From positions 558,001 through 622,000 of the forward strand of contig JAQMWT010000314.1 of NCBI GenBank assembly GCA_029834535.1: a DNA stretch of 64,000 bases, given 5' to 3'. A model generated the notes under the pieces. The model saw nothing but the letters and a program-made list of their open reading frames with translations. It searched no databases and was not told the origin of the DNA. Below are positions 399-64,000 of the stretch, piece by piece. The first letter of the stretch is position 1. Each line of letters opens with the position of its first letter. Made by a program: the position numbers and the translations under genes. The DNA is from Chrysophaeum taylorii. Its lineage: Eukaryota; Sar; Pelagophyceae; Pelagomonadales; Pelagomonadaceae.

Positions 399-413
399 TT
401 ACTCTCTCGCCCA

Positions 414-34389: not shown

Positions 34390-34800
34390 ATGCGGTGGCG
34401 TTCGGCCGCCGTGGTGGTGGTGGTCGGCGCCCGGGCCCACCAGGCCCACCAGGCCCAAGATGAGTGCGGCCAGTACACGCCCGAGGAGGGCGTGTCGTAC
34501 TACGAGGCCGTCGAGATGTGCGGTCCTTGTGCGGCGCAGCCAGGGTGCGGATTCTGCTTGTCGAGCTTGCGGTGCGAAGCAAGCGGCGGCGCGTGCCCCC
34601 GGTGGCTCGGCGAGGCCTCGGAGTGCCCCTCGGTGCCCCACTGCAGCGCGGCCACGGGCTGCGGGGAGTGCGTGGAGCTGGAGGAGTGCGCGTGGTGCGC
34701 TTCGCGCCGCGAGTGCGTGACCGTCGCGGACGTCTTCGCTGCCGACTGCGAGGGCTCCGTATTCGAGCCGCCGTGCCCCGCCTCGGACATTCCGGAGACC
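34390..34800 (+). other. Giant protein: signal peptide and PSI-like cysteine-rich head
   Basis: Residues 1-16 are MRWRSAAVVVVVGARA, with a basic start and a hydrophobic core typical of a secretory signal. Cleavage near residue 16-22 is plausible. Sixteen cysteines then lie between residues 26 and 129 in two similar modules. The first spans CGPCAAQPGCGFCLSSLRC (44-62) and further Cys; the second spans CGECVELEECAWCASRREC (91-109). The C-x2-C and C-x-W-C spacing recalls PSI (plexin-semaphorin-integrin) cysteine knots found in extracellular proteins. The head implies disulfide formation in the secretory pathway. The PSI call is by pattern only. Confidence 0.65.
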
Positions 34801-37800
34801 CGGTTCGTCGGGAACCTCGCGATCGAGCCCGACCCCGTGCTGGGCGGCGGCGGCGGGTTTCGAGCGAGCGGCGGCGCTTTTGAATTCGTCGTCGACGAGG
34901 TCGAGATTTCGATGATTTCGGCGGGGGATATAGCGATGCGTGGCGGCACGGGGGGATCGGTGGAGTTTCAAGCCGGGGACGGCACGAACCCGCACGGCGG
35001 AATCGGCGGCGGGGTGCGGTTTCGAGGTGGCGACGGCAGCGGGGTCGCCGCTGCCGGCGGCTTCGTCGGCGACGGCGGCGGCATCGAGATCGTGGCGGGC
35101 GGCGCCTTGGAAGGAACCGGCGGAACCGTTTCGTTGTGTGGGGGGTCTTCCCAGACCGGCGCAGGCGGCGACCTGCTGTTTCGGGCCGGCGCGCCTCGGG
35201 GGAACGTGGTGATGGAGACGGCGACGGGCGGCGGCGAACGCTCGGGCGACGTCGCCATCGCCACGGGGGGATCATCATCATCTTCATCTTCTTCTTCCGG
35301 GGACATCTTCATCACGACCGGGGACTCGGCAAATGGCGAGGCGGGCGACATCGTGTTGGCCGTCGGCGAGAGCGGGTCCGGAAATGGCGGCGACGTCGTG
35401 TTGAGCGCGGGCACGTCGTCCGAGCCCGGGGCCGCTGGGGGCCAGGTCCAGCTCAACACGGGCGAGAGCGCAGGGACGAGCGGAGACCTCGCGCTCCAGT
35501 CTGCCGACTCGGACTCGAGCAGCGGCGCCGTGGCCGTGGGCACGGGGACCTCGGCGACGGGCGGGTCGGGCGACCTAAGAATAGAAACGAGCGACGCCGG
35601 CGACGCGGCAGGAAACGTCATTCTCGACGCCGGGAGCTCCTCGAACGCCGACGGCGGCGACATCGAGATCGTGGCGGGATCATCGCTCGTGGACGGCGGC
35701 TACGTGCTGTTGAGAGGTGGCTCGAACCTCGCCGAGGACGGCGAGGCGGGGAACGCGACGCTCTCCGGCGGCGCGGCGAGGGGCACCGGCGCCGGCGGCG
35801 CCGTGGTTCTCACGGGTGGCACGGCCACCGACGGCACCGGGGGTGACGTCGAGGTGGTGTCGGGCTACGGACTCGCGACGAGTAGCGGCGACTTGCGGAT
35901 CGCGACGGCCGACGTCTCGGCCGGCTCGAGCGGGCACGTCACGGTGCGCACGGGCACCTCGTCGCGCGGGTCGACCGGCGGGATTTTTTTGTCTACGGGG
36001 ACGGCGAGGAGCGGCGCCGGCGGCGAGATCACGGTGGAGGCCGGGATGGGGTCCTGCGGCGGGGGCGCTTTGCGGGTGCGCGCGGGAGACGCGGAGAGCG
36101 CGAGGGGTCGCGGCGGCGACGCGACGATCGAGACGGGCGCGGGGCCCGAGAGGTCGGGGGACCTCTACGTACGCACGGCCGACCTCGAGGCCGACGGCAC
36201 GAGCGGCCGGGTGGACATTGCGACGGGCGACGCGATCGAGGGCGGCGCTTCGAGCGGCTCGATCGGGCTCGAGACGGGCAAATCCGCGTCCGGCGACGGC
36301 GGCGGGGTGCGGCTCGCGGCGGGAGCCGCCACGTCGGGCGACGGGGGCGGGGTCGCGATGGCGGCCGGCGACGCCTCGGGCGCGCATTCGGCCGGCGGCA
36401 CGATCTCGCTTCGGGCCGGCTCGGGCACGGAGCGCGTCGGCGGATCGGGCGGGGCCGCGACGCTGATTGCCGGCGACGCGCACGACGGCGGCGCCGGCGG
36501 CAACGCGAGCGTCGTCGCGGGCTCGGCGAGGCGCGCGAGCGGGGGCTCGCTCGAGCTTTTGGCGGGGTCGAGTTGGGACGGCGCGGGCGGCGCGGCGAGG
36601 GTATCTACGGGGACGGGGGCCGCCGGATCTGGCGGCGTCGAGATAGTCACGTCCAACGTCGGCGACGCCGGCTCGAGCGGCGCCGTCCGGCTCTCGACCG
36701 GCACGACGGGCCAGGGCCAGGCGGGGAGCATCGCGCTCTGCACGGGCGACTCGACCTTTGGTCGTTCGGGGGCTCTCCTCTTGTCGGTCGGCCGGAGCTC
36801 GAGCGGCGACGGCGCCGGGCTCGCGTGCGTCGCGGGCACGACCGACTCGCCCGCGGCCGCGGGGGGCTCGGTGACGCTCGCGGCCGGCGAGGGCGCGAGC
36901 ACCGACGCCCGGAACGGCGGCAACGGCGGTGCCGTTAACATTCGGGGCGGCACGGCCCTCGGGACCTCGGCGTTCGACCACGCCGGGGGTGTCACGATGC
37001 GCGGCGGCGAGGCCGCCAACGGGCGCGGCGGAAGCGTCGCCGTCGAGTCGGGCGCGAGCCAGAAGGGCACGAGCGGCTCGGTGGTGATCGGGACCCCCGA
37101 CTCGGGGGGCGACGGCGCGAGCGGCGCGATCTCGATTTTCACGGGGGACGCGTCGGCGGGCGAGTCGGGCGCCGTAGTCTGCAGCACGGGCCAGGCGGTC
37201 GACGGCGCCGGCGGCGGCATCCGGATGGTGGCGGGCGAGGGCGACTTGGACGACGGAGGCGACGTCGAGGTTACGGCTGGATCGACGAGCGCCGTGCTCC
37301 GAAAAGGGGGTACGGTGACGCTGGCGGCGGGCGACGGCACCTCGTCCAACGCGAACGACGGCGGCGACGGCGGCGACGTCGTGATGACGGGGGGCGCGGC
37401 CCGCGGCACCAACATGAACGACAACGGCGGCGACGCGTGCGTCTACGGCGGTCGGAGCCTCGCGGGCTACGGCGGCTGCGTTCGAATCGCGTCGGGCCTG
37501 AGCGTCCAGACGTCGTCGGGCGGCGTCCTCGTCGCCACGGGCAACTCGGGCACCGACGGCGTCTCGGGATCAATGACGCTCTCGACGGGCACCTCGAACT
37601 GCGGGCGCTCGGGAGCGATTACCGTCGTCACGGGCGACGCGACGAGCGGCCGCGGTGGCTACGTCAAGCTGCGCGTCGGCACGGGAAATTCGGGCGAGGG
37701 CGGCCAGCTCGAGCTGGCGGCCGGCGCTACGACCGACGAGGCGACGGGGGGATACGTCCGGGTCAGGACGGGCTACTCGTCGGAGACGTCGAGCGGGCCC

Positions 37801-40800
37801 GTGCTCGTCGCGACGCCCAACGCCGGCGCTCTTGGCGTCAGCGGGGAGATCGAGGTCGCGACGGGGACGACGAGCCTCGGGAATTCGGGGAGCATTCTGA
37901 TAGAGACGGGCCTCGCGGCCGACGGTCGAGGCGGAGACGTCATCGCGCGCGTCGGCACGGGGCATAGCGAGGACGGCGGCGACGTCTACATTAACGCCGG
38001 CGAGACGACCGACGCCGAGGCCGCCGGCGGCGACGTGGTCATCCAGGCCGGCGAAGGCTCGTCGACGTACCAGTTCGACGGCGGCGACGGTGGCGTCGTC
38101 CAGATCTACGGCGGCGCCGCGCAGGGCGGCCTCGAGGCCGACGACGGCGGGAACGTCGAAATGGCCGGGGGCTACGCCAAGTCGGGTCGCGGCGGCGCGA
38201 TAATCGTGCGCACGGGCTACGGCGAGGCCACGTCCTCGGGCATCGTCGACGTCTCGACGGCCAACGGCGGCACGAGCGGCGCGAGCGGGAGCATCGACTT
38301 CTCGACCGGCACGTCGAGTTCGGGAAATTCGGGGTACGTCAACGTCGAGACGGGCAAAGCCTCGGGCGGCCGCGCGGGGTACATCCACGCGCTCGTCGGC
38401 ACGGGCAATTCGGGCACGGGCGGCGATTTCGTGGTTGTTTCGGGTCAGACGGACGCCGCGGCGACGGGCGGCTTGATCTCGATCACGACGGGGTACTCGT
38501 CGACGACGACCTCGGGCACGTTCTCGCTCGACACGGCCAACGCCGGCAACTCGGGGGTCAGCGGCGCGATCCACTTTGCGACCGGCACGACGAGCTCGGG
38601 CAACAGCGGCCTCGTCTCGATGGCGACGGGCGACGCCAACGCGGGGAGCGGCGGTAACGCCGAGTTTCTGGTTGGCGTGGGCAACAGCGGCGACGGCGGC
38701 GACGTCGTAATCGCCGCCGGCGAGGCACAGGCCAAGCAGGCGACCGGCGGGCTCGTCCTCATCTCGGGCGGCCACGGCTCGTCTCAAAGCAAGTCGGACG
38801 GCGGCGACGGCGGCGACGTCCTCGTGTACGGCGGCGAGGCGAGCGGCTTGCAGGCGACCGACGACGTCGGCGGCAACGTCGAGATCGTCGGCGGCTACGC
38901 CGCGGGCGCGAGCGGCGGCTCGTGCTCGTTTCAGTCGGGGTACGGCGCGTCGACGAGCAGCGGCGCGATGACCGTCTGCACGGCCAACGCCGGCTCGCCC
39001 TACGGCGTCAGCGGCTCGCTCTCGCTCCTCACGGGGTCGACGACGCTCGGCAACTCGGGATATCTGTACCTCGCGACCGGCACCGCCTCGAACGGACGCG
39101 GCGGCAACGCGACCGTGCTGGTCGGGACGGGGACGAGCGGAGACGGCGGCAACGTCTACGTCGTCGCCGGCGAGACAACCGAGGAGGCGAGAACTGGCGG
39201 GAATATCCAGATCAACGCCGGCCGCGGCGCCTACGACAAGACGGGCGTCGACGGCGGCGACGGCGGCGACGTCCAGATTTACGGCGGCGAGGCGAGGGGC
39301 GGGTGCGAGACCACCGACACCGGCGGCGACCTTTGGTTCGCGGGCGGCGTCGCGGCCGCGGGCACGGGCGGCAACGTCGACCTGCGGTCGGGCTACGGCG
39401 CAGCGACCTCGAGCGGCTATCTCGCGGCGCGCACCGCCAACGCGGGCGCCTCGGGCGTGAGTGGCTCTATCTCTCTGGCGACGGGAACGGCGTCGAGCGG
39501 CAACTCGGGTGCCTTGACTTTCGAGACGGGCGACGCTACGGACGGCCAGTCTGGCGGCATAACTCTGGATGTGGGCGACGCCGGCGCTGGCGCGGGTGGC
39601 GACGTCTACGTTTCGGCCGGGTCGACGTCGGGGTCGAGCGGCCTCACGGGAGGCAGCATCTACGCGAGCAGCGGTTCTAGCGAGTATACGACGAGCGGCG
39701 CGATTTCCCTTTACACCGCCAACTCGGGTCCCGACGGCGCGAGCGGCGCGATATTGTTGTCGACCGGTCTCGCCTCGACCGGCAACTCGGGCGCGATTTT
39801 TCTCGAGACGGGCACCGTGGCGTCCGGCGGCAAGGGCGGGGCAATCAGCCAGCTCGTCGGAACGGGCGTCTCGGGAGCCGGCGGCGCTATCATCATCGCC
39901 GCCGGAAACTCGTCCGACTCGAGCAACGCGGGCGGCCGCGTCGTCGTGCGCGCCGGCTCCTCTTTGAATTCGGACGGCGGCGAGGGCGGCTCGATCATCC
40001 TCGAGGCGGGCGAGGCATACGGCGGCGACGAAACCGAAGACCTCGGCGGGGGGATAACAGTCCGCGGCGGCGCGTCCGCGAGCGCCACGGGCGGCCGCGT
40101 CGACGTCGTCACCGGCATTGGCGACGCGACCTCGAGCGGCCACATGACGCTTCGGACGATGAATGCCGGCGACGCCGGGGTAAGCGGCGAGATCGAGTTG
40201 ACTACGGGCAGCACGACGGCCGGAAACTCGGGCCATATCTTGCTCGAGACGGGCGCGGCGACGACGGAGGGCGCCGCGGGCTCCATTTCGGTCGCGTCGG
40301 GCTCGGGCGACTCGGGCACGGGCGGCGCGCTGACGTTTCGGGCAGGCGGCACCTCGGGGGGCGGCGAGACCGGTGGCAGCGTCCTGATCAGGAGCGGCTA
40401 CTCGGAAGCCACGTCTAGCGGCAACGTGGCCATCCTGACGCCCAACGCGGGCGACGAGGGCGTCTCGGGATCCCTCGCGTTTCGGACGGGGTCGACGTCG
40501 CTGGGAAACTCGGGCAGCCTCAACCTCACAACCGGCGACGCCGAGAGCGGCGCGGGCGGTGCGATCAACATTTCGGTTGGCTCGGGGGGCTCGGCGATAG
40601 GCGGTTCGGTCCGCGTATCGGCCGGAGACGCGACGGCCGGCGACTACGGCGGTTCGGTCTACGTGTCGAGCGGCGAAGGCGTCGACACGTCGAGCGGCAA
40701 CGTCACGATCCAAACCGTCAACGCCGGGCAAGATGGGGTCAGCGGCTCGATATCTTTGACCACCGGCACGTCGGCTGCCGGCTCGAGCGGCATCTCGGTG

Positions 40801-43800
40801 CGCGTCGGCGCCTCGACGGCCTCGTCTTCGGGCAACATCCTCGTGAGCGTCGGCGGCTCGGGCAGCGGGTCCGGCGGGGTCGTGAACGTGTCGGCGGGCG
40901 ACGCCGAGGGCGAATCGTCTTTAGCTGGTGCTGTCAATATAACCGCCGGCAGCGGCGGCACCGGCGGCGACATAATTTTGACGGCCGGAGGATCTTTGGA
41001 CTCGGCGTCCGACGGCGGGTCTGTCCTCGTGACGGCCGGCGGCGCGTCGCAAAACGCGGGCGGTGGCGTCATCGTCACGTCGGGTCAGAGCACCGAGGGC
41101 GACACGGGCAGCGTGGTGGTGGCGACCGCCGACGCGGAGGCTGACGACGCCGCGAGCGGAACCGTCGCGCTGTGCTCGGGAACCTCGGCCTCCGGCAACA
41201 CGGGGGATTTGGTATTAAAGACGGGAACGTCGTTTGCCGACGGGAAGAGCGGACACATCGAGCTGATTGTGGGGACGAGCTCTGACGGCAACGGAGGCGA
41301 CATCTACGTCTACGCCGGCGCAACCACCGACTCGGCAATGGGCGGCGCGATCGAGCTGGTTTCGGGCAGCTCGGCCGCCGCGACGACGGGCTGCGTATTG
41401 GTCGCGACCTGCGACGCCGACGCGTCGTCGGGGTGCATCTCGATCGCGACCGGCACGAGCAACTCGGGCGGCGCAAGCGGGAGCCTCGCGATCGCGACCG
41501 GAAACTCGACCTCGTCGGCCGCGGGCGACGTATCGCTCGCCGTCGGCTCTGGCGCCGCGGGAGTTGGCGGCGCGATAACACTTCTCGCCGGCTCGATGAC
41601 GGACGCCGACGCGACGGGGGGATCGATACGCGTGATGGCAGGGGCCGCGACCTCGGGCGGCGGTGGCGCGGTCACCGTGAGTGGAGGGGCCGCGATCTCC
41701 GATCGCGGCGGAGACGTGAGGGTGCGCGGAGGATATTCGACGGCCTCCTTTGGCGGGAGCATCCGGCTCGAGAGCGGCGAAAGCGGCGGCGGCGGCGGCG
41801 CCGACGCTAGCAGCGGAAACGTGACGCTCTACACGGCCAACGCGGCGGGATCCTCCTCCTCCTCCTCCGGCTCGTTGGTGCTGTCGACGGGCTCGGCGAT
41901 CTCCGGGAACTCGGGAGAGATTCTGCTGTCGACGGGCACGGCGACGTCGGGCGCCGCGGGGTCGATCTCTATCCGCGCGGGAGGCGGCGACTCGGGCCAG
42001 GGGGGAAACGTGGATATCTACGCGGGCGAATCCTGGAGCGAAGAAAAAACTGGAGGCTCGGTGTCGCTTTCGACGGGCTACGGAAACTCGGCGTCGAGCG
42101 GGAACGTAACGCTCGCGACGTGCGATGCCTCAAACGGCGGCGCGTCGGGCGCGATCAACATCACGACAGGAAATGCCCGCGGTGGCGACTCGGGGTCGAT
42201 CACGCTCGCCACCGGGTCCTCGTCCGCGGGTTCGGCCGGTACCGTCGTCGTGGAGCTCGGGTCGTCGGGCGGCGCGTCGGGCGGCGCCGACCTGAGCTAC
42301 GCCGCGGGCGCGTCGACCTCGTCGACGGGCGGCTTCCTTTACGTGATGAGCGGCTATTCGGTCGCGACGACCAGCGGCAACGTCGTGCTGCGCACGGTCA
42401 ATTCGGGCGCCGGCGCGAGCGGCGACCTCCTTTTGTACACGGGAACGGCCTCCGAGGGCGCGTCCGGGGCCATAAACCTAACTACGGGTACGGCGTTCTC
42501 GTCGCGGTCGGGCTCGATAGTCTTGGCTGTCGGGTCGGGCGACGAGGGCGGCAGCGTCATCATCGAAGCCGGGGCCTCGACGTCCGAAGAACAGACCGGA
42601 GGGTGCGTGTCGATCGCGGGCGGCGCGAGCACCCAAAACGTCGGCGGACTCGTCTCGATTGCCGCGGGCGCCGGGGCCGCCGCAACGGGCGGGTCGATTT
42701 CTTTGACGTCGGGCAGCACGAGCGAGCAACAAAGCGGCGCGATCAACATCTCGACGGCTTGGAATGTTGGCGGCGGCGACACGGGCGCTCTCTCGGTGAC
42801 GACGGGCACGGCAAAATCGGGGAACTCGGGCGCGATTTTTCTCCGCACGGGTGCGGCGTTGTCATCGTCGGGCGGCGTCGGCGGCGCGATCGTTCTTAAA
42901 GTCGGCGACAGCACGTCGGGCGCGGGCGGCAACTTGAGGATGCACGCGGGTGCCTCGGAGACGTCGACGGGCGGCGACGTCTGCGTCGCGAGCGGCGCCG
43001 GAACGACGACGAGCGGGACGATTTTGTTGCGCACGGCCAACGCCGGTACCAAAAGCGGCGACCTCGCGATCTCGACGGGCGACGGCGCGTCGACGGGGGC
43101 AGTAAAAATTGCGACGGGAGATAGCACGGCGGCGACGAGCGGGTCGATTTACGTCCAGGCGGGCACCTCGGCGGGCTCGGGCGTCGGCGGGTCTCTCTAC
43201 CTGCACGCCGGGACGAGCACGCAACGCGGCGGAAACGTATCAATAACGAGCGGGGTCAGCACGGCGGCGACGTCCGGCGCCGTCGAGCTCGCGACGGGAA
43301 CGTCCGCGACGGGCTCGGGCTCGGGGTCGATCCTCGTCGCGTCGGGCGCCTCGACGGTCGGCGACGCGGGCGCGATCGTCGTCGCGACTGGAACGTCGTC
43401 GTCCGGCGAGACGGGGGGTCTCGCGCTGACCACCGGGTTTGCGACCTCGACGCCGGGAGATATCCTGATAACCGCGGGCTCGTCGACCGCCTCGACGGGC
43501 GGGTCGATTCTGGTGTCGGCGGGCACTTCTCTAGCGAGCGGCGGCGGCGCCATCAACCTGTGCTCGGGAAACGGCTCCGCGACGGGAGGTGATATTTCGA
43601 TGGTCGCCGCCGCCGGTCTCGTCTTGTCGTCGGGTGCCGGCGATGATTCGGCGGGCAACGCGTCGATCGCGACGGGCGACGCGGACGGAAACTCGGGCTG
43701 CATCTCGCTGCGGACGGGCACTTCGGCGTTCGGGAGTTCGGGCGGGGTGACGATCGAGACGGGGGATGGTGTTGTCTCGCTTGGCGTCGAGATCACGGTA

Positions 43801-58800: not shown

Positions 58801-61800
58801 GCGATATCGGTCGCCGCCGGCGCTGGTACGGAAACCGCCGGCGCCCTCGCGCTCGCGGCCGGTGCCGGGTGCGAGGAGGGCGGGGCCATCGCGTTCGAGG
58901 CCGGCAAAGGTGCCGTCGGCGGGGACGTGCTCGCGGCGGCCGGGGACGGCGCCTCGGAAGGCGGCCGCCTCGCGCTCCGTTCGGGGGGTGGCGACGCGAG
59001 GTCGGGCGTCGTCGAGCTGGGGAGCGCGGCCGCGGGCGAGTCCTCGGGCGACGTCCGACTGTGTACGGGCGACGCCAAACATCGCGCTGGCGGGGTCGTT
59101 GTTGGCACGGGCGACGCCGTCGAACACGGCGGCGGTATCCGCGTGCGCGGCGGGCAGGGAGGAAGCGGCGGCGGCAGCGACGTGGTCTTGGAGGCCGGCG
59201 ACGGCCACTTCGAGGGCGGCTCGGTCGCCGCGCGCGCGGGAAGCGGCGACCGAGCCGGAGGCGACGTCGCGCTTGCCGCGGGCGACGGGCGCCTCGAGCG
59301 CGGCGGCGACGTGGCCGTGCGGGCCGGCGACGGCTCGACGCGGGGCGGCGGCGTCGCGTGCGTCGCGGGAAACTCGAGCCGTGGGGGGTCGGTTTTGTTG
59401 AAGGCGGCCGCGGGTTGTTCGAGCGGAGGGGACGTGCGACTCGTCGCCGGCGAGGGTCCCGACAGCGAGATCGCGGTCGCGTCGGGGGACGCGTCATTTT
59501 TGGTTCGGTCGCGGTCCATCGAGGCCCGCGCGCGCGCGCACCGGACCGAGGCGCGCGTCGTCGACATGGACGCGACCGAGGGCCCCGTGGGGTCGCGGAT
59601 CAAGTTCTCCGTGTCGGGGCGGCCGGGACCCGATTTGAGAATCGAGTCGACCGATTCGGAAAGTGGCGCGTCGGTCATCGCGACGGCGCCGCTGCGCGTG
59701 ACCAAAGTCGAGTACTCTTCGGACCGCCGCATCAAGCGCGACATCGCTCCGCTCAACGAGTCGGAACTCAGCGACTTGTACGACCGTTTCACCAAGGTCA
59801 GGCTCGCATCCTACCGGTATACCGACGCCTGGCTCGACGTTCGCGGTACCGAAGACGTCCGCGTGCGCGGGGTCATCGCGCAGGAGCTCGAGGACCTTTT
59901 TCCCGACCGCGTCGAGGTTTTAAAAAACTACACGCACCCCGCCCACAACTTTAGCATGACCGACTTTTACCAGGTCGACAAGCAGGGCCTCACGCTCGAC
60001 CTGATCGGCGCGCTCCAGGCACATCACCGCCGTTTCACCATCCTGCCCGACGACGCCAACGGCGTCTCGGGCGGCGTCCGCGTCTCGACGAACGACTCGG
60101 CGACAAAGGCGACCGGGGACGTCGTCGTCAAGACGGGCGATAGCGCAGCGCAGACCTCGGGCGCCATCGAGATCGCGACGGGGGCGGCGGGCACAGACTC
60201 GGGCGCCATCACGTTGAGGGCCGGTCAAGCGGGGTGCTCGGGAGGTGCTATTTGCCTCGCCGCCGGCAACGCGACGACCGGCGGCGCGGTCTGCGTGGCG
60301 GCGGGGTCCGGGACGACGTCGTCGGGAGGCCGCGTTTCGCTCGCGGCCGGAGACGGTGGTGGCTCCGCCGCCGACAAGGGTGGCGACCTGGTTTTGAGCG
60401 CCGGCCGCGGCGATGTTATCGGCGGCAATATCACGATTGCGTCGGGCGCGAGCGCGTCTCGAGCGGGCGATATCTTGATCTCGGCCGCCGCCGCCGCTGG
60501 TTCCGAGAGCGCGAGGGGTGGCGACGTCGTGGTCTCGGCTGGCGACGGCGACGTTGCCGGCTCCGTGTGTGTTGCTGCTGGCGCAGGGGACGACGAGGGC
60601 GAGATCTTCCTCGAGGCTCGGACGGGCTCCGTTTGCGTTGCCACCGGCGACGGCGACGTCGCGTCTGGCTCGATCAGCCTCGCCGTGGGCGACGCCGAGA
60701 CCGAGGCCGGCTCGATCGACGCGAGCGTGGGCAGCAGTGCGATGGGCGACGGCGGCGCCATTTCGCTGCGAGCAGGGGAGGGCGCCGAGGTCGGGGGGGG
60801 CTTGCTCGTGAGCGCCGGCGACGGCGCGACGGGTGGGGACGTGTGTTTAGCCGGCGGCCGCGGCAACACCGACGCGGGCGGTGGCCTCGCGTTGAGCGCG
60901 GGCGAGGGTGCCGTCCACGGCGGCAACGCCTCGCTCCACACCGCCGATGGCAGCGTCCGGAGCGGCGTCATCAACGTGTCGACTGGTTACGGCACGGTGG
61001 CGTCGGGCGAACTCCGTCTGGCGACGGGCCATGCTGGCAGCAGCCGGGCCGGCGACATCGTCGTCGCCGGCGGCGCCGGCTTCGGCCTTGGGGCGTACGT
61101 CAGCTTGCGCGCCGGAAGCAGCGAAATGGAGCGGGGCGGCAACGTGTCGATCTCGGCGGGGAACGGCACCGTGGGCGGTGGAATCATTATTGCGGCTGGG
61201 CTGGGTCGGAGTGACGCGGGCGGCGGAATCTCGCTCGCCGTCGGCAACGGCACGTCTGGCAAGGGCGGCGACTTTCGAGTGAGCGGCGGCGCCACCAACA
61301 ACGGCCCCGGCGGCGCGATCGTCGTCGCAGGAGGAAACTCGAGCGCGGCCGAGGGCGGCTGCGTCGCGCTGCGCGCCGGGAACGGCACCACCTATGGCGG
61401 CGATCTTCGACTCTCGAGCGGCAGTGGTGGGAACGCGCGCAGCGGTAACGTGAGGCTCTCGACGCCAAACTCTGATGGCGGCGAAGACAGCGGCCGCAGC
61501 GGCACTATCATCCTTAGCACCGGCGACGCCGCCGCCGCTGCCGCGGAGGGGTCTTCTTCTTCGGGCAATCTATCTCTCAGGACTGGCAACGCGCAGCATC
61601 GCGCGGGCTCGATCATCCTCGAGGTTGGCGCGAGCAGCTCTGGCGGCAGCGGCTCGATCAACCTCGGGGCGGGGGCGTCTATGGCGGAGGCATACGGTGG
61701 CGGGGACATCACGCTGACTGGCGGCGACGGACCGTCGGGGGGCTGCCTCGACCTACGCAGTGGAGACGGCCTCGCTGGAAGGGGCGGCGACGTTATCATC

Positions 61801-64000
61801 TCCAGTGGTGGCGGCCTCGGTTCGGGCGACGTCAACGTAACGACAGCCGACGCCGATACGAGCAACACGGGTTCGTTGCGGCTATGCACGGGTCGCAGCG
61901 CGTCCGGCGCGAGCGGCAACATCTCGCTCGAGACGGGCGCGGCGGCACTGCAGAGTGGCAGTCTGTCTCTGAGCGCCGGGAGCACCGGCACCGGTTCGGG
62001 TGGCCACATACGCCTCAATGCAGGCGATGCGCTCGCGAGTGGTGGCGTTGGCGGCGTTGTCGAGTTACGCGGCGGCGGTGGCGCGACGCGCGGCGGGAAC
62101 ATCTCGCTCGCGACGGCCGACGGAGGCGACATCCGCGCGACGGTCGGTGCTTCGACACTCGGGGACGGCGGCGCACTCGTATTGAGCGCTGGCAACACGG
62201 AGCTAGGCTCGGTGGGCGGACGGGCAGAAATCATCGCGGGGGCAGGCAGCGAGCGCGGCGGGATGGTGTCGATCCGAGCGGGGTCCTCCGCACTCGAAGG
62301 TGGCGACGTCGTGCTCACGGGTGGTGAGGGCGACGGCAGCGGGGCCATTCGGCTCGACACGGCGACGGGTACGTGCTCGGGCGCCCTGCTGCTGCGAACG
62401 GGCAACGCGACCGACGCGAGTGGCGAGATAAGCCTCGCCACGGGAGATGCTGACGAGGGACCGCCCGGACAAATCGCGCTGATGGTTGGCCGCGGCGGCA
62501 GCAGCGGTGGCGACCTCACAGCCCAAGCTGGCGCGAGTGTCGACGGCCAAGGCGGCAGCGTGTTGGTGGTCGCGGGCTCAGGAAAGACGGCCGGCGGTGC
62601 CTGCGTCGTGACCGCCGGCAACGCGACCGACGGCGCGGGTGGCAGCGTCGCCATCGCGAGTGGCAACTCGGGCGATGGAAGCAGCGGCGCGATCGAGCTG
62701 TCGACTCCCGGGCTCCTCGACGGTGACGACGAGACGAGCGATGGAATCGGCGGCGGCATTCGGCTCGCGACGGGCGACGTCGGCGGCAACCAGGCCATTT
62801 CGGGCAGCATCGTCGCACTCACGGGATCGTCGGCCGATGGCGCGACTGGCGACTTGTGCTTAGCCACGGGCGACGCGACCACTACGACAGGAGGCATTCG
62901 CGTCGCCGCAGGCAATTCTACCGAGAGCTCTGGTGGTGGCTGCGAGCTCGCTGCCGGCGACGGCGCCAAAGGAGGGGCTGTTCGGCTTGCTGGGGGCGCC
63001 GGCTCCGACTACGCCGGCGGTAGCGTGCGCATCGTCTCTGGGAGCTCATCGAGTGGCGCCGCAGGATCGATTTCGGTCGCCGCGGGTCGCGGTGGCAGCG
63101 CTGGCGGCTCGACAACCATCGCTGGCGGCGACGGCCAGCAGGGCGGCGCCGTCGAGATAACCGCGGGCAGCGGCACTGACTTTGGCGGAGGCCTCAAGTT
63201 GTCGAGTGGTGGCGGCCAGCGCGGCGGCGGAGAGGTCGACATCTGCACCGCCGAGAGCAGCGCCGACGATGGGCGCTCGGGTGACCTTACGATGCGCACG
63301 GGCGACGCGGCCGACGGAGAGCGCAGCGGTACGGTGCGCATAAACAGCGGCTGGTCCGCGAGTGGCTCGACGGGTGATGTCGCCGTGACCGTCGGCGACG
63401 GCGGCACATCGGGAGGCCGACTCCTGGTTGCAGCCGGGTCGAGCGGCACGCAGGACGGAGGCAACGTCTCGATACGCGGCGGCGACGGCGCGAGCGCGGG
63501 AAACGTAACCGTGTCGGCCGGATCGGCTGCGCAGGGCGGCACTGGCGGTCCGTTGCTTGTGTCGAGCGGCGAGAGCCGCGGCGACGACGGCGTGACAACC
63601 GGCTGCGTCGAGATCAGGACGCCAGCGGCCGCGACTCAGTCGGGCGATATCGTCGTCGCCACCGGCGCCGCTGCCGAGGCAGACTCGGGATCGGTCACTG
63701 TGGCGACCGGCACCGCGACCGAAGGCGCCGGAGGCAACCTCACGCTGCGCGTCGGCGAGGGTCGCGATGGACCCGGCGGGGCCGTGAACCTGAGCGCCGG
63801 GTCCACTTTCAGCGACGGCTTGGGGGGTGCGTGCTCGCTGTCGGCTGGCGATGCCGGTCGCGATGGTGGGGACATTCGCGTTTGTGGCGGCGACGGTGAA
63901 AACGCTGGTGGGAACGTCACGATTGCGGGGGGCGAGGCAACCGACGGCGTGGGTGGTGGCCTGCGGCTCGCGGCAGGAAGTGGCGGCGCAGAGGGTGGCG
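34390..64000 (+). CDS. Giant secreted beta-solenoid protein with PSI-like head and internal Peptidase S74 domains (3' end outside window)
   Basis: One frame is open from the ATG at 34390 to the window end, at least 9870 codons. An in-frame TGA at 34378 fixes the 5' limit. Order: signal peptide (about residues 1-22); cysteine-rich PSI-like head (26-129); solenoid I (about 165-3820); S74 domain 1 (3825-3930); solenoid II (about 3945-8360); S74 domain 2 (8442-8549); solenoid III (to at least 9870). Solenoid units are about 14-16 residues with consensus GG/SG-D/A/S-V-x-V-x-T/A-G-x-A/G, so several hundred rungs are present. S74 domains in phage tail spikes and in eukaryotic MYRF trimerise, help fibre folding and cut themselves off. 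Here they are internal. I infer a secreted cell-surface or extracellular fibre polyprotein; a viral origin of the S74/fibre modules is possible. No intron is required. Third codon positions are overwhelmingly G or C. Confidence 0.9.
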   Translation, partial: MRWRSAAVVVVVGARAHQAHQAQDECGQYTPEEGVSYYEAVEMCGPCAAQPGCGFCLSSLRCEASGGACPRWLGEASECPSVPHCSAATGCGECVELEECAWCASRRECVTVADVFAADCEGSVFEPPCPASDIPETRFVGNLAIEPDPVLGGGGGFRASGGAFEFVVDEVEISMISAGDIAMRGGTGGSVEFQAGDGTNPHGGIGGGVRFRGGDGSGVAAAGGFVGDGGGIEIVAGGALEGTGGTVSLCGGSSQTGAGGDLLFRAGAPRGNVVMETATGGGERSGDVAIATGGSSSSSSSSSGDIFITTGDSANGEAGDIVLAVGESGSGNGGDVVLSAGTSSEPGAAGGQVQLNTGESAGTSGDLALQSADSDSSSGAVAVGTGTSATGGSGDLRIETSDAGDAAGNVILDAGSSSNADGGDIEIVAGSSLVDGGYVLLRGGSNLAEDGEAGNATLSGGAARGTGAGGAVVLTGGTATDGTGGDVEVVSGYGLATSSGDLRIATADVSAGSSGHVTVRTGTSSRGSTGGIFLSTGTARSGAGGEITVEAGMGSCGGGALRVRAGDAESARGRGGDATIETGAGPERSGDLYVRTADLEADGTSGRVDIATGDAIEGGASSGSIGLETGKSASGDGGGVRLAAGAATSGDGGGVAMAAGDASGAHSAGGTISLRAGSGTERVGGSGGAATLIAGDAHDGGAGGNASVVAGSARRASGGSLELLAGSSWDGAGGAARVSTGTGAAGSGGVEIVTSNVGDAGSSGAVRLSTGTTGQGQAGSIALCTGDSTFGRSGALLLSVGRSSSGDGAGLACVAGTTDSPAAAGGSVTLAAGEGASTDARNGGNGGAVNIRGGTALGTSAFDHAGGVTMRGGEAANGRGGSVAVESGASQKGTSGSVVIGTPDSGGDGASGAISIFTGDASAGESGAVVCSTGQAVDGAGGGIRMVAGEGDLDDGGDVEVTAGSTSAVLRKGGTVTLAAGDGTSSNANDGGDGGDVVMTGGAARGTNMNDNGGDACVYGGRSLAGYGGCVRIASGLSVQTSSGGVLVATGNSGTDGVSGSMTLSTGTSNCGRSGAITVVTGDATSGRGGYVKLRVGTGNSGEGGQLELAAGATTDEATGGYVRVRTGYSSETSSGPVLVATPNAGALGVSGEIEVATGTTSLGNSGSILIETGLAADGRGGDVIARVGTGHSEDGGDVYINAGETTDAEAAGGDVVIQAGEGSSTYQFDGGDGGVVQIYGGAAQGGLEADDGGNVEMAGGYAKSGRGGAIIVRTGYGEATSSGIVDVSTANGGTSGASGSIDFSTGTSSSGNSGYVNVETGKASGGRAGYIHALVGTGNSGTGGDFVVVSGQTDAAATGGLISITTGYSSTTTSGTFSLDTANAGNSGVSGAIHFATGTTSSGNSGLVSMATGDANAGSGGNAEFLVGVGNSGDGGDVVIAAGEAQAKQATGGLVLISGGHGSSQSKSDGGDGGDVLVYGGEASGLQATDDVGGNVEIVGGYAAGASGGSCSFQSGYGASTSSGAMTVCTANAGSPYGVSGSLSLLTGSTTLGNSGYLYLATGTASNGRGGNATVLVGTGTSGDGGNVYVVAGETTEEARTGGNIQINAGRGAYDKTGVDGGDGGDVQIYGGEARGGCETTDTGGDLWFAGGVAAAGTGGNVDLRSGYGAATSSGYLAARTANAGASGVSGSISLATGTASSGNSGALTFETGDATDGQSGGITLDVGDAGAGAGGDVYVSAGSTSGSSGLTGGSIYASSGSSEYTTSGAISLYTANSGPDGASGAILLSTGLASTGNSGAIFLETGTVASGGKGGAISQLVGTGVSGAGGAIIIAAGNSSDSSNAGGRVVVRAGSSLNSDGGEGGSIILEAGEAYGGDETEDLGGGITVRGGASASATGGRVDVVTGIGDATSSGHMTLRTMNAGDAGVSGEIELTTGSTTAGNSGHILLETGAATTEGAAGSISVASGSGDSGTGGALTFRAGGTSGGGETGGSVLIRSGYSEATSSGNVAILTPNAGDEGVSGSLAFRTGSTSLGNSGSLNLTTGDAESGAGGAINISVGSGGSAIGGSVRVSAGDATAGDYGGSVYVSSGEGVDTSSGNVTIQTVNAGQDGVSGSISLTTGTSAAGSSGISVRVGASTASSSGNILVSVGGSGSGSGGVVNVSAGDAEGESSLAGAVNITAGSGGTGGDIILTAGGSLDSASDGGSVLVTAGGASQNAGGGVIVTSGQSTEGDTGSVVVATADAEADDAASGTVALCSGTSASGNTGDLVLKTGTSFADGKSGHIELIVGTSSDGNGGDIYVYAGATTDSAMGGAIELVSGSSAAATTGCVLVATCDADASSGCISIATGTSNSGGASGSLAIATGNSTSSAAGDVSLAVGSGAAGVGGAITLLAGSMTDADATGGSIRVMAGAATSGGGGAVTVSGGAAISDRGGDVRVRGGYSTASFGGSIRLESGESGGGGGADASSGNVTLYTANAAGSSSSSSGSLVLSTGSAISGNSGEILLSTGTATSGAAGSISIRAGGGDSGQGGNVDIYAGESWSEEKTGGSVSLSTGYGNSASSGNVTLATCDASNGGASGAINITTGNARGGDSGSITLATGSSSAGSAGTVVVELGSSGGASGGADLSYAAGASTSSTGGFLYVMSGYSVATTSGNVVLRTVNSGAGASGDLLLYTGTASEGASGAINLTTGTAFSSRSGSIVLAVGSGDEGGSVIIEAGASTSEEQTGGCVSIAGGASTQNVGGLVSIAAGAGAAATGGSISLTSGSTSEQQSGAINISTAWNVGGGDTGALSVTTGTAKSGNSGAIFLRTGAALSSSGGVGGAIVLKVGDSTSGAGGNLRMHAGASETSTGGDVCVASGAGTTTSGTILLRTANAGTKSGDLAISTGDGASTGAVKIATGDSTAATSGSIYVQAGTSAGSGVGGSLYLHAGTSTQRGGNVSITSGVSTAATSGAVELATGTSATGSGSGSILVASGASTVGDAGAIVVATGTSSSGETGGLALTTGFATSTPGDILITAGSSTASTGGSILVSAGTSLASGGGAINLCSGNGSATGGDISMVAAAGLVLSSGAGDDSAGNASIATGDADGNSGCISLRTGTSAFGSSGGVTIETGDGVVSLGVEITVGTGSSGGVGSAITLKAGTLALADDLDSTAAAGGAVEIASGSSPRGASGRISLATPDGPSVSSSARIGSGNITLETGSAPAGSAGGITLAVGAGYSGPGGNVVLTAGAAGTADYDGGAISLQAGSSARYGGTLSLASGAGELGPGLISISTPDAAAKGGDILVSTGTSNVRSGSIALETGSSSQGSAGAIVLAVGTSHSGAGTDLNISAGASTLATGGALRLSGGASTAASSGNATISTPDGIASGSLVLATGTASGGSSGSIVISTGAAANNAGSINITAGAGTSGDGASLRVTAGPTCSATQAGGALELSAGGAGGIGGSVEIMGGDGATAGAVRIETGAATSASSGALEMRTGMAASAGTTGATILISTGNATAGASGAVCLSTGTASAGNTGSISLSVGAATSTAGNVTLAAGSSTTAANGGSVSILGGGGGGSVSLATAEASSGGASSGAIALATGASSTADSGAITLSTGTTDSGTAGSITLSAGTASTSVGGAVRLAAGNSSSSSSSSSSGGGSISVLAGSVTVSTGDGTSSGGVTVETGAATSGASGDIVLQTGAATTTSGDCRIGVGSTTSGSIGDLVLHAGQSTASGGDIEISADGSSGRVLLGRTDDAHVQLNGSDVDVVAGAGGDVRLASSGGTIGFGISESPYDGSNDVEYDVRLASNGTATQFIASVPVQVTAQYYSSDERIKRDVEEVDVEDLLSRIQKVRMKSYKYTDAWRKVRKVPDVRVRGVLAQELEEVFPEHVTVLPKYELRDKHFGMEDFYQVDKQALVLDTVGALQALHARYSVVLPEDDDPGRSASLRVTTEDAGESGAISVRTGAATRASSGGVDVATGSAPLGASGSIFLRTSGDAREAGNVTLAAGESARSRGGSVRLAAANGQTGGDVSLSGERISCATGASSSRGGGNAAAFEVGEALEGDGGAVSFSAGAGAVRGGSVRLAAGDGADVGGGVDLLSGSGNRGGGGDVSIRAGKGEKEGGELRLCAGEGALSSGAVFVSSADSAAASGLLRLASGRSLEGSSGDVLVETGAAYVDSGSVELKAGASRAGSAGCLELAAGAGGATGGGLSLDAGAGGSTGGAVAISSGAGASASGDVVVMAAGAGAGAGGSVVLAAGAGARRAGDVALSAGSSAEADGGAVVVSSGGGASSGAVSIASAAADASGDVLVSTGDALGVVGKAGDLRFETGDGERAGGMVLVAGDGREEAGSLEMRAGCSTLGVAGRVTVGAGDGGATGGGSIVMDAGDGGERGGDATLRSGGGERGGDVVVASAPGMTSSGDLEVRTGDAAEASGAIRVGSGDADSSSGDVEVLVGGGGDLALEAGESTDESGGAATLAAGAGSRGGDVRVSAGAGATSKGGDATFAAGEGAAEGGTVRLQAGRGGDRGGGVELRAGAGGDEAFSSSGGDVDVCADGRVAVQGGRVFVEAAGDMVVETADAEEEGGAISVSAGAGATGGGAVDVRAGGGEVAGRARLAGGDGGAVGGAIELFAGRGDEVGGAIDARTGAGGEVSGDLVLASASAGDRSSSGDVEISSGDAGERSGGIEIRSGDAGVDPGAVHVESRGALVATAGDGEDSGGNLDVAAGDGANTGGRVAVLGGAGETSGGGVDLFAGAGGGSVRVEAGNGGSGGDVNVEAGSGKDGGGGALRVEAGNGGRGGGGAVDVRTGAGDASSGSFGMRTGDAGASGGIDIRTGDGGEKAGGVGVRAGAGGAAGGDLELAAGDAPRGVGGDVRLRAGSGEAGGDLLVEACGALMALSGDDGDVRVASGDGANSGDVRIATGEAAKTSGDIQLATGESEEKFGGGGGVEVRAGGGGLVARAGDGDESGGAVELAAGAGEAGGNLALAAGSGEVAGGDVEIGAGDGAADAGSVAIAAGSGGIGGELFLASGSGELAGNVNVESFGTVDARAGPGGFRVATGQGRDAAGAIELATGDARKGAAGGLRLRTGDSAEASGGTIDLSAGSGDASGGSVLLSAGAGEDKGGGVEIRAGGSDQGVGGDLLAEGAAVSVTTTTAAAAASSGDVVVASGDSVESPSGDIVVASGNAEDESGELAVLAGSATSGIGGDVLAAAGDGAIGGGRVDLEAGSGDAGGGVAVRAGVGRETGGSVVVAAGDADQEAGGGIEMRAGGGAIGGDLALAAGRGSAVGGSLRLGAGSDAELKTGDGEKRSGSVAISTGRGEKSGDLVLETGDALRAGGVRLAVGDAAEGPGGSVEVLAGEGGGRVSIAAGAGSAGGEIELSAGDGRREAGGNVRVAGGASLQAETGAVNLESAAGGGASGGVRVASGEAVSDVSGSLDIASGDGVEAGDVAVRVGAARETAGELNLAAGDGETLGGSATLRAGAGARGGGLRLAAGDGVDLGGDASMTVGGGDGVGGSLSLEAGSAALEGGDVRVRAGDGGRGGDLDLSAGSSRAAGGDVRVASGAGDEGGGGDLSIVGAGDVSIATGAAAGAAGSISLAAGESQQAPGAGVDIKAGNGGKTGGEVRLAAGDGHRDGGVVEVRAGDDGGSLLAEASGGVAVRGGDVEIESGGSEEERSGSVAVRSGDADFAGGVAVAAGDGDARGGALRLAAGDGETAGDVDVTAGAGGLSGGDVAVRAGAGDSSEGGSVELSAGASETDRGGGATVRAGDGRERGGALSLGAGNGGAVCVASHGGDVRVATGDASGGGGGDSGRLELSTGSGETTGDVEIESGGSDVRVAVGASDKDAGGSLELLAGNGGVEGGRVSARAGDGSEIGGSFVVEAGSGRGGGNLELLAGAGGGAVSVASGEGAAAAASGDISLVTGAADESSGAIAIATGDARDSGDVEVVAGAGELEGGGLSVGAGAGATGGAATVSAGDSAGENSEGGGGRITLSAGDGLSEGGDVEVRAGAGDVAGGIAVEAGSGGEAGGSLSVRAGDGKDGGCLELSAGRSGGGGGGGGFVALRGGDGSSRGGGVQVATGAGSASGDLSLSTGEAAAPGSISLRGGAVRVLGGSARVAVSGEVNICGDGPVVASGAGVDVVSGNARDTGDVRLATGDAEEESGAVEISSGDASRAGAVRVSGGGNGGGEGGDLMATAGDGQERGGAVVVASGAGEAAGQVVVRGGTGGAEGGEVDLRAGDGDEEGGSVRLAAGAGRRGGDLALGAGASEVSTGGAARVESGNGGELVVETASGPASGALTVRTGDAETQSGCVALASGSAAGAGDVCARVGASALGNGGLLRLEAGDAVRGTGGSASIAAGDGANGGDVCLEAGEGSSGSGGDATLMSGPRGAVTIATPDAAAAATGDVVVATGAATAGDSGDVALATGDAKDRAGSIELCVGGSGGHQGAAGGRILVSGGSSETGAGGPIQLRSGAGDDGGALELEAGAGERAGGDLEVVAGSSSLGNGGDLELRSGDGDAGGAISLLGGAGGSRGGDVGIASGGALAGESGRVAVSTAGGSGTSGDIRVVTGDADAASGDIELATGNATEASGDVRVLVGESAAAGGRLELRAGDGETTGGAVVARAGDGRTGGRVEIAAGNGGGSGGGSGGGALDLTSGSGGNATLRSGAAASSSGSLSLETGAAETFSGSARLATGDAEDESGGVEVAAGAGGGNLSVAAGDGSEAGCVLVAAGAGATGGGLALRAGAGGGGPVIVEAGDSEEDAGGRMDIRAGGGGTRGGAVSFAAGSGHDHGGSVELAAGAGRGEGGAVGLRSGGGAAESGEIRIATGEAEGDTGALRLATGDALCGGGGRAGNLRLETGESNDGGAGIEILAGSSRRGAGGLVELRSGGGSCGGAVAVEGGEVELRAGANVSVATSAARVSGSIEVATGDADDASGAVGIATGDAARSGSVSVEAGAGGGAVYVRAGDGFSTGGTVVLAAGAGELEGGGCVAVRGGKGGGAIDVLAGDGGGAVKLRAGDGHHRGGDLALAAGDGEEGGNLRLQAGPGGNAVLETGAAATGSSGGARVATGDAETSGSLVLSTGDAARAGDIDVRAGRGAIEGGGLVLGAGDGVEGGRVLVEAGGGGVDGGSVELAAGAGSARGGSVALVGDGVSIASVASPAVGDIVVSTGSAATGDSGAIALATGTATGRAGGVTVAVGTGAEMGGGGLALGAGNAVAGAGGDAAMAAGSGSSGGALFFAAGNGTVGKGGDATILAGAGETAGGSVALMAGAGASGGDVKIAAGGGGGALDLVAGAGARAGGSVALRSGAGPEGGDVHVAAASAVSIATGDARHEAGNIELAAGCSGLDGAGVRVLAGAAEHGAGGQVRLAAGAGGGGGDLELCAGSGGEEGGGVAVASGAGGCESGGIAIASAPGPSATGAVLVASGDGAAAGSVVVRSGEAEDQAGGVRVAAGDAVLQGGMLELEAGDGGEHGGSVDVVAGRGDAGGAVRLAAGGGEDGGGGIELRSGAAVHHGSGGAVRLEAGDGERGGDLALAAGDNGGAVSVLAGDNGGAVTLATGVGRKTGALQLATGNASHGASGDLELSTGAGCASGSAAIRAGKGREDAGRLEIRAGDARAGAGGGCVARAGDGALSGGDARIEAGAGDSGGALLLRSGASSSEQSGGVGISSGDGGESSGDVSLATGEAGTSGRLELATGDAAAAESGGIEVRAGLGLGLGGGGGVEVVAGDGASSSGGRVEVAAGAGERVGGATSLAAGGGELEGGAVSLMAGESLEEDGGAFAVAAGAGFRKGGALSLAAGAGEDGGSARLEAGGGEVGGRCALLSGAGVTSGDVVVASGEGASSSGIVALSTGDAEGKAGDLELRTGDGERASAIEARAGRGDTGGDVRLAGGQGGSRGGRVDLVAGDGGRGGDVRLESGAGSETGGACEIASGSAGSVSGDVRLATGDGATSGSIEVCSGDAETTVGALTLAAGKGGGTGGKLCAAAGDGRETGGAVELAAGGGGTKGGSLGIAAGRGGGDIDVVAGDADAGPGGAVAVRAGGGDRGGAVSLRAGDGDGLGGALRLVAGSGDDSGDVELFSPAAPNSTGAVRISTGSAAATSGSLTLATGDAATAGAISVAAGAGTETAGALALAAGAGCEEGGAIAFEAGKGAVGGDVLAAAGDGASEGGRLALRSGGGDARSGVVELGSAAAGESSGDVRLCTGDAKHRAGGVVVGTGDAVEHGGGIRVRGGQGGSGGGSDVVLEAGDGHFEGGSVAARAGSGDRAGGDVALAAGDGRLERGGDVAVRAGDGSTRGGGVACVAGNSSRGGSVLLKAAAGCSSGGDVRLVAGEGPDSEIAVASGDASFLVRSRSIEARARAHRTEARVVDMDATEGPVGSRIKFSVSGRPGPDLRIESTDSESGASVIATAPLRVTKVEYSSDRRIKRDIAPLNESELSDLYDRFTKVRLASYRYTDAWLDVRGTEDVRVRGVIAQELEDLFPDRVEVLKNYTHPAHNFSMTDFYQVDKQGLTLDLIGALQAHHRRFTILPDDANGVSGGVRVSTNDSATKATGDVVVKTGDSAAQTSGAIEIATGAAGTDSGAITLRAGQAGCSGGAICLAAGNATTGGAVCVAAGSGTTSSGGRVSLAAGDGGGSAADKGGDLVLSAGRGDVIGGNITIASGASASRAGDILISAAAAAGSESARGGDVVVSAGDGDVAGSVCVAAGAGDDEGEIFLEARTGSVCVATGDGDVASGSISLAVGDAETEAGSIDASVGSSAMGDGGAISLRAGEGAEVGGGLLVSAGDGATGGDVCLAGGRGNTDAGGGLALSAGEGAVHGGNASLHTADGSVRSGVINVSTGYGTVASGELRLATGHAGSSRAGDIVVAGGAGFGLGAYVSLRAGSSEMERGGNVSISAGNGTVGGGIIIAAGLGRSDAGGGISLAVGNGTSGKGGDFRVSGGATNNGPGGAIVVAGGNSSAAEGGCVALRAGNGTTYGGDLRLSSGSGGNARSGNVRLSTPNSDGGEDSGRSGTIILSTGDAAAAAAEGSSSSGNLSLRTGNAQHRAGSIILEVGASSSGGSGSINLGAGASMAEAYGGGDITLTGGDGPSGGCLDLRSGDGLAGRGGDVIISSGGGLGSGDVNVTTADADTSNTGSLRLCTGRSASGASGNISLETGAAALQSGSLSLSAGSTGTGSGGHIRLNAGDALASGGVGGVVELRGGGGATRGGNISLATADGGDIRATVGASTLGDGGALVLSAGNTELGSVGGRAEIIAGAGSERGGMVSIRAGSSALEGGDVVLTGGEGDGSGAIRLDTATGTCSGALLLRTGNATDASGEISLATGDADEGPPGQIALMVGRGGSSGGDLTAQAGASVDGQGGSVLVVAGSGKTAGGACVVTAGNATDGAGGSVAIASGNSGDGSSGAIELSTPGLLDGDDETSDGIGGGIRLATGDVGGNQAISGSIVALTGSSADGATGDLCLATGDATTTTGGIRVAAGNSTESSGGGCELAAGDGAKGGAVRLAGGAGSDYAGGSVRIVSGSSSSGAAGSISVAAGRGGSAGGSTTIAGGDGQQGGAVEITAGSGTDFGGGLKLSSGGGQRGGGEVDICTAESSADDGRSGDLTMRTGDAADGERSGTVRINSGWSASGSTGDVAVTVGDGGTSGGRLLVAAGSSGTQDGGNVSIRGGDGASAGNVTVSAGSAAQGGTGGPLLVSSGESRGDDGVTTGCVEIRTPAAATQSGDIVVATGAAAEADSGSVTVATGTATEGAGGNLTLRVGEGRDGPGGAVNLSAGSTFSDGLGGACSLSAGDAGRDGGDIRVCGGDGENAGGNVTIAGGEATDGVGGGLRLAAGSGGAEGG
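34880..45861 (+). repeat. Giant protein: solenoid region I (Ser/Thr/Gly-rich)
   Basis: About 3650 residues of 14-16-residue units, for example SGDLRIATADVSAG, SGHVTVRTGTSSRGS, TGGIFLSTGTARSGA. Alternating hydrophobic residues between Gly-Asp and Thr-Gly turns fit a right-handed beta-helix. Runs of serine from repeated TCN codons occur near 35268-35300, 41851-41868 and 45320-45346. The last 90 or so residues before the S74 domain (from about 45580) lose the simple repeat and read like a fibre tip (RVLLGRTDDAHVQLNGSDVD, GTIGFGISESPYDGSNDVEY). Confidence 0.8.
37813..43110 (+). repeat. Higher-order tandem repeat inside solenoid I
   Basis: A block of the type T-A/P-N-A-G...GVSGSI-x-L-x-TGT...GNSG recurs with its first codon at 37813, 38257, 38533, 38980, 39433, 39715, 40156, 40438, 40714, 41125, 41407, 41833, 42118, 42394, 42754 and 43033. 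Spacings fall mostly into two classes, 276-285 bp (about 6 rungs) and 411-453 bp (about 10 rungs), and all are multiples of three. Many blocks are preceded by ATSSG or TTSG. Confidence 0.75.
45862..46179 (+). other. Giant protein: Peptidase S74 (intramolecular chaperone) domain 1
   Basis: Residues 3825-3930 read YYSSDERIKRDVEEVD, then SYKYTDAW, DVRVRGVLAQELEEVFP, FYQVDKQALVLDTVGALQAL. This matches the S74 family, with its SDxRxKxD start, GxIAQEL/VxxxFP block and helical end. Ser3828 and Lys3833 have the five-residue spacing of the catalytic Ser-Lys pair known from endosialidase tail spikes and MYRF. In characterised members cleavage occurs just before this serine. The domain is followed without a stop by YSVVLPEDD and more solenoid. 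Confidence 0.93.
46180..59480 (+). repeat. Giant protein: solenoid region II (Ala/Arg/Glu-rich)
   Basis: About 4430 residues of the same rung pattern but with different side chains. AGDG, AGAG and RAGAG turns replace most TGTS turns, and Arg, Glu and Ala are far more frequent (for example GGDVRVRAGDGGRGGDLDLS). The T-A-N-A-G higher-order block of region I is not evident. Long antisense open frames here are a by-product of the GC-rich repeat. Confidence 0.8.
59713..60036 (+). other. Giant protein: Peptidase S74 (intramolecular chaperone) domain 2
   Basis: Residues 8442-8549 read YSSDRRIKRDIAPLNE, then SYRYTDAW, DVRVRGVIAQELEDLFP, FYQVDKQGLTLDLIGALQAH. Ser8444 and Lys8449 keep the catalytic pair and spacing. 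The domain is clearly paralogous to domain 1 and is also followed by similar linker and solenoid (FTILPDDANGVSGGVRVST). The 4616-residue distance between the two serines would be the length of the middle fragment if both sites cut. Confidence 0.93.
60037..64000 (+). repeat. Giant protein: solenoid region III (continues beyond window)
   Basis: At least 1321 residues of rungs after S74 domain 2, intermediate in composition between regions I and II (for example TGDVVVKTGDSAAQT, SGAIEIATGAAGTD). The frame is still open at the last base. By the pattern of modules I and II, a third S74 domain may follow outside the window. Confidence 0.8.

Follow-up and report, generated by a model that had tools for sequence, protein, structure and literature searches.

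The window analysed here, a 64,000-nt stretch of contig C314 in an assembly of the alga Chrysophaeum taylorii (70.8 Mb, 697 contigs), holds the first part of what is probably, as one element of the overall explanation that we favour, an intact nuclear gene of the alga with two exons, encoding a secreted fibre protein of 35,000 residues. On the same balance of evidence, the product would be a surface or extracellular fibre, probably trimeric, that cuts itself at two internal Peptidase_S74 domains into three parts.

The giant gene, its surroundings and its paralogue

As the initial annotation had claimed, a single plus-strand frame runs from the ATG at position 34390 to the end of the window (34390..64000), comprising 9,870 codons with no stop and no X, the nearest in-frame stop upstream ending at 34380. 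Extension to the right, which had been proposed as the way to find the stop codon, led to a TGA at contig position 696904 and gave 34,838 codons with neither a stop nor an N, 3.5 times the length first seen. In the five alternative frames of this DNA (approximately 34,837 codons each) there are 1134, 958, 628, 232 and 1413 stops; composition alone therefore does not account for the complete absence of stops in the giant frame, although long antisense frames of up to 1,665 codons do occur. The frame had also been described as uninterrupted, which holds for these 34,838 codons but not beyond them, where a predicted 59-nt GT-AG intron (contig 696865–696923) joins exon 1, which continues to C314:696864, to the last exon. 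The final codons ahead of the TGA at 696904 depart from the repeat, and removal of the predicted intron takes them out and regenerates the rung GGSVTLKPG, in register. Exon 2 finishes in a non-repetitive domain (the knob) and stops at a TGA at 697449–697451. One clear relative of this C-terminal knob (54% identity) was found in the genome, where it ends the array on contig C531; a partial short copy lies close downstream on C314. The reading that best fits the giant frame is a gene of two exons that ends outside the window, past one predicted short intron, with a predicted spliced product of 35,000 aa (3.159 MDa, pI 5.73).

The encoded chain is laid out in the order signal peptide, PSI-like cysteine head, 15-aa rungs, S74, rungs, S74, rungs, 91-aa array and knob. 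The signal peptide noticed earlier is, as read from the sequence, probable (aa 1–22, MRWRSAAVVVVVGARAHQAHQA; 34390..34455), and the leader of the paralogue described below is hydrophobic too. A cysteine-rich head with two PSI-like motifs follows (aa 24–121; 34459..34752); it recurs in the paralogue (C341:210390–210623; 43% over aa 41–112), while its assignment to the PSI/plexin repeats falls short by profile, Pfam PSI scoring 18.8 bits at aa 84–113 against a cut-off of 23.1. The remainder of the window part consists of an acidic rung block of approximately 15 aa per rung (aa 150–3740; 34837..45609), the Pfam core of a first Peptidase_S74/MYRF-like ICA domain (45871..46059; module to approximately aa 3945), a second rung block that is acidic and Gly/Ala-rich with rungs of 13–15 aa (aa 3946–8379; 46225..59526), the core of a second such domain (59719..59913; module to approximately aa 8560), and the start of a third rung block (aa 8561 on; 60070..64000) which turns into the 91-aa array outside the window, all on the plus strand.

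Upstream and divergent from the giant lies a class-III aminotransferase gene (32969–34300, minus strand; PF00202, 341.8 bits), the start of which is, by eye, approximately 100 bp from the giant's ATG, and the two genes likely share a promoter region. Additionally, the window carries repeated pieces, 120 and 54 nt long, that share 98% identity and lie approximately 7.9 kb apart (23762–31856), by their look LTRs of a retrotransposon, and Copia-type RVT_2 frames at 2600–6637 (plus) and 13393–15081 (minus). The genome as a whole yielded 84 light-harvesting matches, which mark it as that of an alga.

Array matches were found on contigs C314, C341 and C531 only, among the matches listed. The paralogue on C341 has a leader, the same cysteine head, an ETRxVGN motif, rungs, two embedded S74s and an array. 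Since the last 10 kb of C341 match C531 at approximately 99% (with single-base indels) and the contig end is poor, the two contigs probably carry parts of a single split gene, although they may hold two near-identical copies. Joined with an overlap at C531:12.3 kb, the paralogue would span approximately 93 kb, an alternative placing 4.4 kb away also being possible. The C341 end additionally carries an inverted array fold-back (C341:297163–301152) with many short deletions relative to C531, which is probably an assembly error. Several breaks interrupt the frame of the paralogue: four of its eight junctions have a GT-AG candidate (at a loose score, with none proven), and frameshifts are among the remainder, the contig-end breaks being indels relative to C531.

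Rungs, the 91-residue array and selection

Hundreds of rungs had been noted at the outset; the frame as a whole contains 1,898 strict strand matches (approximately 5.4 per 100 aa over 34,838 aa), against 159–173 in five shuffles, and their spacing is exactly 15 in 1,097 of 1,897 cases. From approximately aa 11,136 to 34,800, six rungs form a 91-aa unit, with a motif spacing of exactly 91 in 178 of 215 cases and higher-order repeats of 728, 819 and 1,456 aa. Within the unit most turn glycines do not vary, V/I/L occupy every other strand position and the residues between them vary freely, a pattern that fits a solenoid or triple beta-helix whose core is buried. Known ice-binding solenoids are likewise built of repeated beta rungs, and the 15-aa rungs and their repetition resemble them; it is scarcely credible, though, that the giant is a repeat ice-binding or ice-adhesion protein with flat ice-binding threonine rows, given that in the 91-aa unit the residues facing outward vary and show no regular T-x-T row. 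Structural modelling (AF2) of aa 1276–1458 in the first rung block gave a best pLDDT of 80.5 and pTM of 0.68, the other four models ranging from 72.5 to 43.5; the five models disagree, and DSSP gave nothing for the best one. A fold search of this model in the PDB returned no match. Against viral structures five matches were obtained, of which only the best had E <0.001, with a poor TM-score of 0.32, the second having 0.59 and E 1.1e-3.

The charge changes along the chain, from acidic in the rung blocks as far as aa 11,130 to basic from there to aa 34,800 (K+R 874, D+E 448; contig approximately 625.8–696.8 kb). The rung blocks before this point hold 25, 9 and 34 N-glycosylation sequons, and aa 11,130–34,800 (approximately 23,670 residues) holds 0. 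The switch in charge and glycosylation at approximately aa 11,130 is sharp, and Asp is almost absent after it. Furthermore, the two halves of the gene differ in composition, third-position GC falling from approximately 0.86 in the window part to approximately 0.53 in the array (beyond 628 kb).

The manner in which the repeats have diverged was assessed in 110 ungapped pairs of 364 codons each, drawn from aa 9,000 on at six chosen lags and at more than 65% amino acid identity. Across identity classes, dN/dS between repeats was 0.10–0.26 (aa 9,000–34,800), with synonymous difference reaching 0.735 where non-synonymous difference was 0.243; when the identical pairs were read in the +1 and +2 frames, pN exceeded pS and the pattern was lost. 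The later repeats, from aa 9,000 on, are under purifying selection, and as their divergence is mainly synonymous, most of the giant has been selected as a protein and not maintained as an open satellite. In the window part, 14 gapless pairs of 90 codons gave pS 0.502 and pN 0.391, a weak signal in repeats that are too diverged for the pair test; codon-position composition and the paralogue otherwise support this part. The open frame and selection on its protein are, taken together, well supported.

It is accordingly very unlikely that the array stems from misassembly or is an open satellite, the true gene being much shorter. Repeat arrays do misassemble, as the fold-back and indel errors at the end of C341 illustrate, and the weak selection in the window-part repeats would fit such a reading. 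The dN/dS values speak against it, as do the intron and knob found in register at the far end, the presence in the array of a single tandem stretch of at least 300 nt at 95% identity or more, and the recurrence of the same layout at a second locus. The array's copy number may nevertheless be off, because one 12.2-kb stretch is self-identical at 96.3% with a 4,368-nt shift. The arrays of both giants, on C314 and C531, have a higher-order repeat of approximately 4,368–4,370 nt, equal to 16 of the 91-aa units, suggestive of either amplification in parallel or inheritance of the unit.

Embedded S74 domains, MYRF and other relatives

The two S74 domains noted at the outset are confirmed by the Pfam profile (PF13884), at 53.4 and 43.2 bits against a cut-off of 22, and nothing else in the frame (bar a few codons at fetch borders) rises above the Pfam cut-offs. 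A search of the whole genome for S74, in which all nine first-look candidates were scored, placed two within the giant frame. Both carry a Ser-Lys dyad, in SDERIK (Ser3828, codon 45871–45873; Lys3833) and in SDRRIK (Ser8444, codon 59719–59721; Lys8449), and the SDxRxK motif occurs at these two sites only within the 35,000 aa. Self-processing, as had been suggested for this protein, is plausible in that the dyad is kept in both domains; the cutting itself would follow by likeness to other S74 proteins. The modules are followed by 31,055 and 26,440 aa, respectively. A fold model of S74 (pLDDT 44.8) was too poor for use.

All S74 pairs within and between the two giants are 41–57% identical (pS 0.49–0.89, pN 0.29–0.41), values that point to an old duplication separating giant and paralogue. 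The two S74s of the C314 giant are nearer each other (57%) than to those of the paralogue, and module conversion or a later duplication is thus possible. The S-D-x-R-x-K dyad is present in all four embedded S74s of the giants despite only 41–49% identity between the S74s of one giant and those of the other, and also in the metagenome protein P0001. This retention argues against a rival in which the embedded domains have ceased to cut and only clamp the trimer in register, the product staying one 35,000-residue chain. In favour of such clamps, S74 is terminal in all 21 loci recovered when viral contigs were scanned with the S74 alignment (ordinary C-terminal S74s, many of them near-copies), and here more rungs follow directly; we regard them as unlikely, if far from negligible, and retain self-cutting as the preferred reading.

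When a profile of three embedded S74s was compared with the PDB, the MYRF ICA domain (7dc3) was the best match (E 1.4e-13), far ahead of phage fibres (0.00031 and 0.0031), and MYRF also came first for each of the four embedded S74s searched singly (E 1.4e-7, 1.8e-4, 1.9e-5 and 6.5e-6). Conversely, the C-terminal S74 of an ordinary fibre on C587 (one of four) matched a phage fibre first (E 0.0036, MYRF 0.49). In a tree, five embedded S74s grouped with MYRF at 83/92, separate from algal C-terminal S74s; with 18 rows, eight of the 21 viral loci, C323 excluded, long branches and a program warning, this grouping is suggestive only. By these comparisons, the giant's S74s appear more like eukaryotic MYRF than phage spikes. 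The likeness extends to the mid-chain position, the dyad at +5 and an aligned C-terminal block (ENF..VNK / EDFYQVDK), and the relevant passages of PMC8326128 describe a beta-helical stalk upstream of the MYRF ICA, cutting that needs S587/K592 (equivalent to S911/K916 of endoNF) and cutting only as a trimer. MYRF differs in being a membrane transcription factor, whereas the giant has two S74s in a rung-built chain with a leader-like start. No Pfam match to a DNA-binding domain as in MYRF was found across the giant frame, and hydropathy identified no MYRF-like transmembrane helix, the top eight 19-aa stretches all being rungs (best mean 1.83). A genome search with MRF_C2 gave no match, with the positive control silent as well. 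As MYRF works on the cytosolic side, cutting within the secretory route is proposed by analogy with secreted S74 fibres.

Such fibres are known from Bdellovibrio, where, according to the descriptions drawn on from PMC10769870, mosaic adhesive trimeric (MAT) fibres combine a signal peptide, a beta-helical fibre and an S74 with SDxxxK, and Bd3182 cuts itself at S782. A conserved beta-rich domain of approximately 130 aa behind the signal peptide is a further mark of MAT fibres. The giant resembles them, by description, in its probable signal peptide and predicted S74 beta-fibre; in the descriptions of that paper, S74 is terminal in 13 of 21 MAT proteins and the chains are of approximately 1,000 aa (Bd2133 ends at 1,031). 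Phage fibres and spikes (endosialidase, PHROG 1980) likewise have an S74 chaperone-protease following a beta fibre; the giant departs from the phage type in that its S74s are internal and in its rung density, the viral S74 loci having 0–0.6 rungs per 100 aa. A repeat-built, S74-containing giant protein with a leader-like start, in an alga, is supported, but the wholly new class suggested by the initial annotation is not, since secreted S74 trimeric fibres exist in Bdellovibrio and phages and the rungs are shared. The giant is a far larger variant of the S74 trimeric fibres, with S74 internal instead of terminal. Titin, the PKZILLA synthases and the Omnitrophota giants are alike in size class, with other domain types.

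Among proteins more widely, a 401-aa S74 piece found two relatives (best 7,982 candidates scored) and four array units found 22 (best 7,991 candidates scored), 19 of which were examined; a search with the 9,870-aa piece gave none for region 3700–3960. P0001 consists of a short rung-poor stretch, S74 and then many rungs. Of the array relatives, P0005 has rungs and an EGF head, P0003, P0008 and P0010 have C-terminal knobs, P0018 has a terminal S74, and P0013, P0016, P0017, P0019 and P0023 are rung proteins that look bacterial- or phage-like. Rung-plus-knob relatives are listed from the source 'merc', an ocean eukaryote metatranscriptome catalogue. The rung thus appears common to eukaryote-like, bacterial-like and phage-like proteins. 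Within the genome, C587, C443 and C323 (S74 near 137.0, 242.9 and 44.0 kb) encode ordinary long fibres with terminal S74 and a different degenerate repeat, TAAVTGTSTLAVAGIT; those on C587 and C323 have, by eye, EGF-like heads. Literature listings on algal S74, stramenopile S74, giant algal genes and mastigonemes showed no account of this protein, and the searched text of a huge-protein study (PMC11573180) mentions no Aureococcus, Emiliania or peptidases.

These relatives bear on whether the giant derives from a virus, as a fibre gene that the alga captured or that lies inside an endogenous giant virus; we hold this to be very unlikely. S74 with flanking rungs does match phage tail-fibre families (PHROG 1980 against the first S74 with flanks, E 2.4e-23; the viral fold matches above), and GC is 72–76% in the first 9,000 codons as opposed to 42–56% over the window's first 32 kb. 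From aa 12,001, though, GC is 58.5–60.1%, close to the 59.4% measured in the flank downstream, which argues against a foreign block downstream. The kinship of the embedded S74s with MYRF, in both tree and first matches, also opposes a viral origin, as do the neighbouring aminotransferase gene and retrotransposons and the predicted splicing of the giant. At the sensitivity used, the array alignment found no relative in viral contigs, neither the S74 nor the array alignment found one in GTDB genomes (few pattern words were used, so that only close relatives would be seen), and no giant with embedded S74s was found in either collection; a tblastn search of phage records with a 500-aa S74 piece gave no match.

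Proposed assembly and meaning

For the favoured self-cutting fibre, we infer splicing, secretion, trimerisation, cutting and a surface role, and 'fibre' and 'surface' are used as labels in that sense. The leader would direct secretion, the rungs would stack into long beta-solenoid or triple-beta-helix shafts, and the cysteine head and C-terminal knob would constitute two functional ends. Each embedded S74 would gather three chains, bring the shaft upstream of it into register and then cut the chain right before its serine (Ser3828 and Ser8444). The products would be a head with acidic rungs (1–3827), a middle rod (3828–8443) and a long rod of approximately 26,500 aa carrying the knob (8444–35000), which may form a fibre, coat or adhesin, either extracellular or on the cell surface.

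A more speculative extension, which we consider distinctly doubtful, is that of a length ruler, in which the S74s would act as cut-and-cap joints that yield three trimeric rods of fixed length, each new S74 capping the next rod. The giant has approximately 2,270 rungs (rung-bearing length divided by approximately 15.2 aa), and with one rung per layer and a rise of approximately 0.48 nm per rung, the rod length is by arithmetic approximately 1.1 micrometres. If true, algal hairs, scales or extrusome filaments of micrometre size could take their length from a rod of this kind.

If real as read, the giant is, to our knowledge, among the largest predicted eukaryotic proteins. It would have almost the whole protein in one exon and selection acting across tens of kilobases of repeats, and one may ask by what means a chain of this size is translated and secreted, and if the number of repeats fixes a physical length. 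The occurrence of S74 self-cutting domains twice in mid-chain, in an apparent structural protein, would link phage fibres, bacterial adhesive fibres and MYRF.
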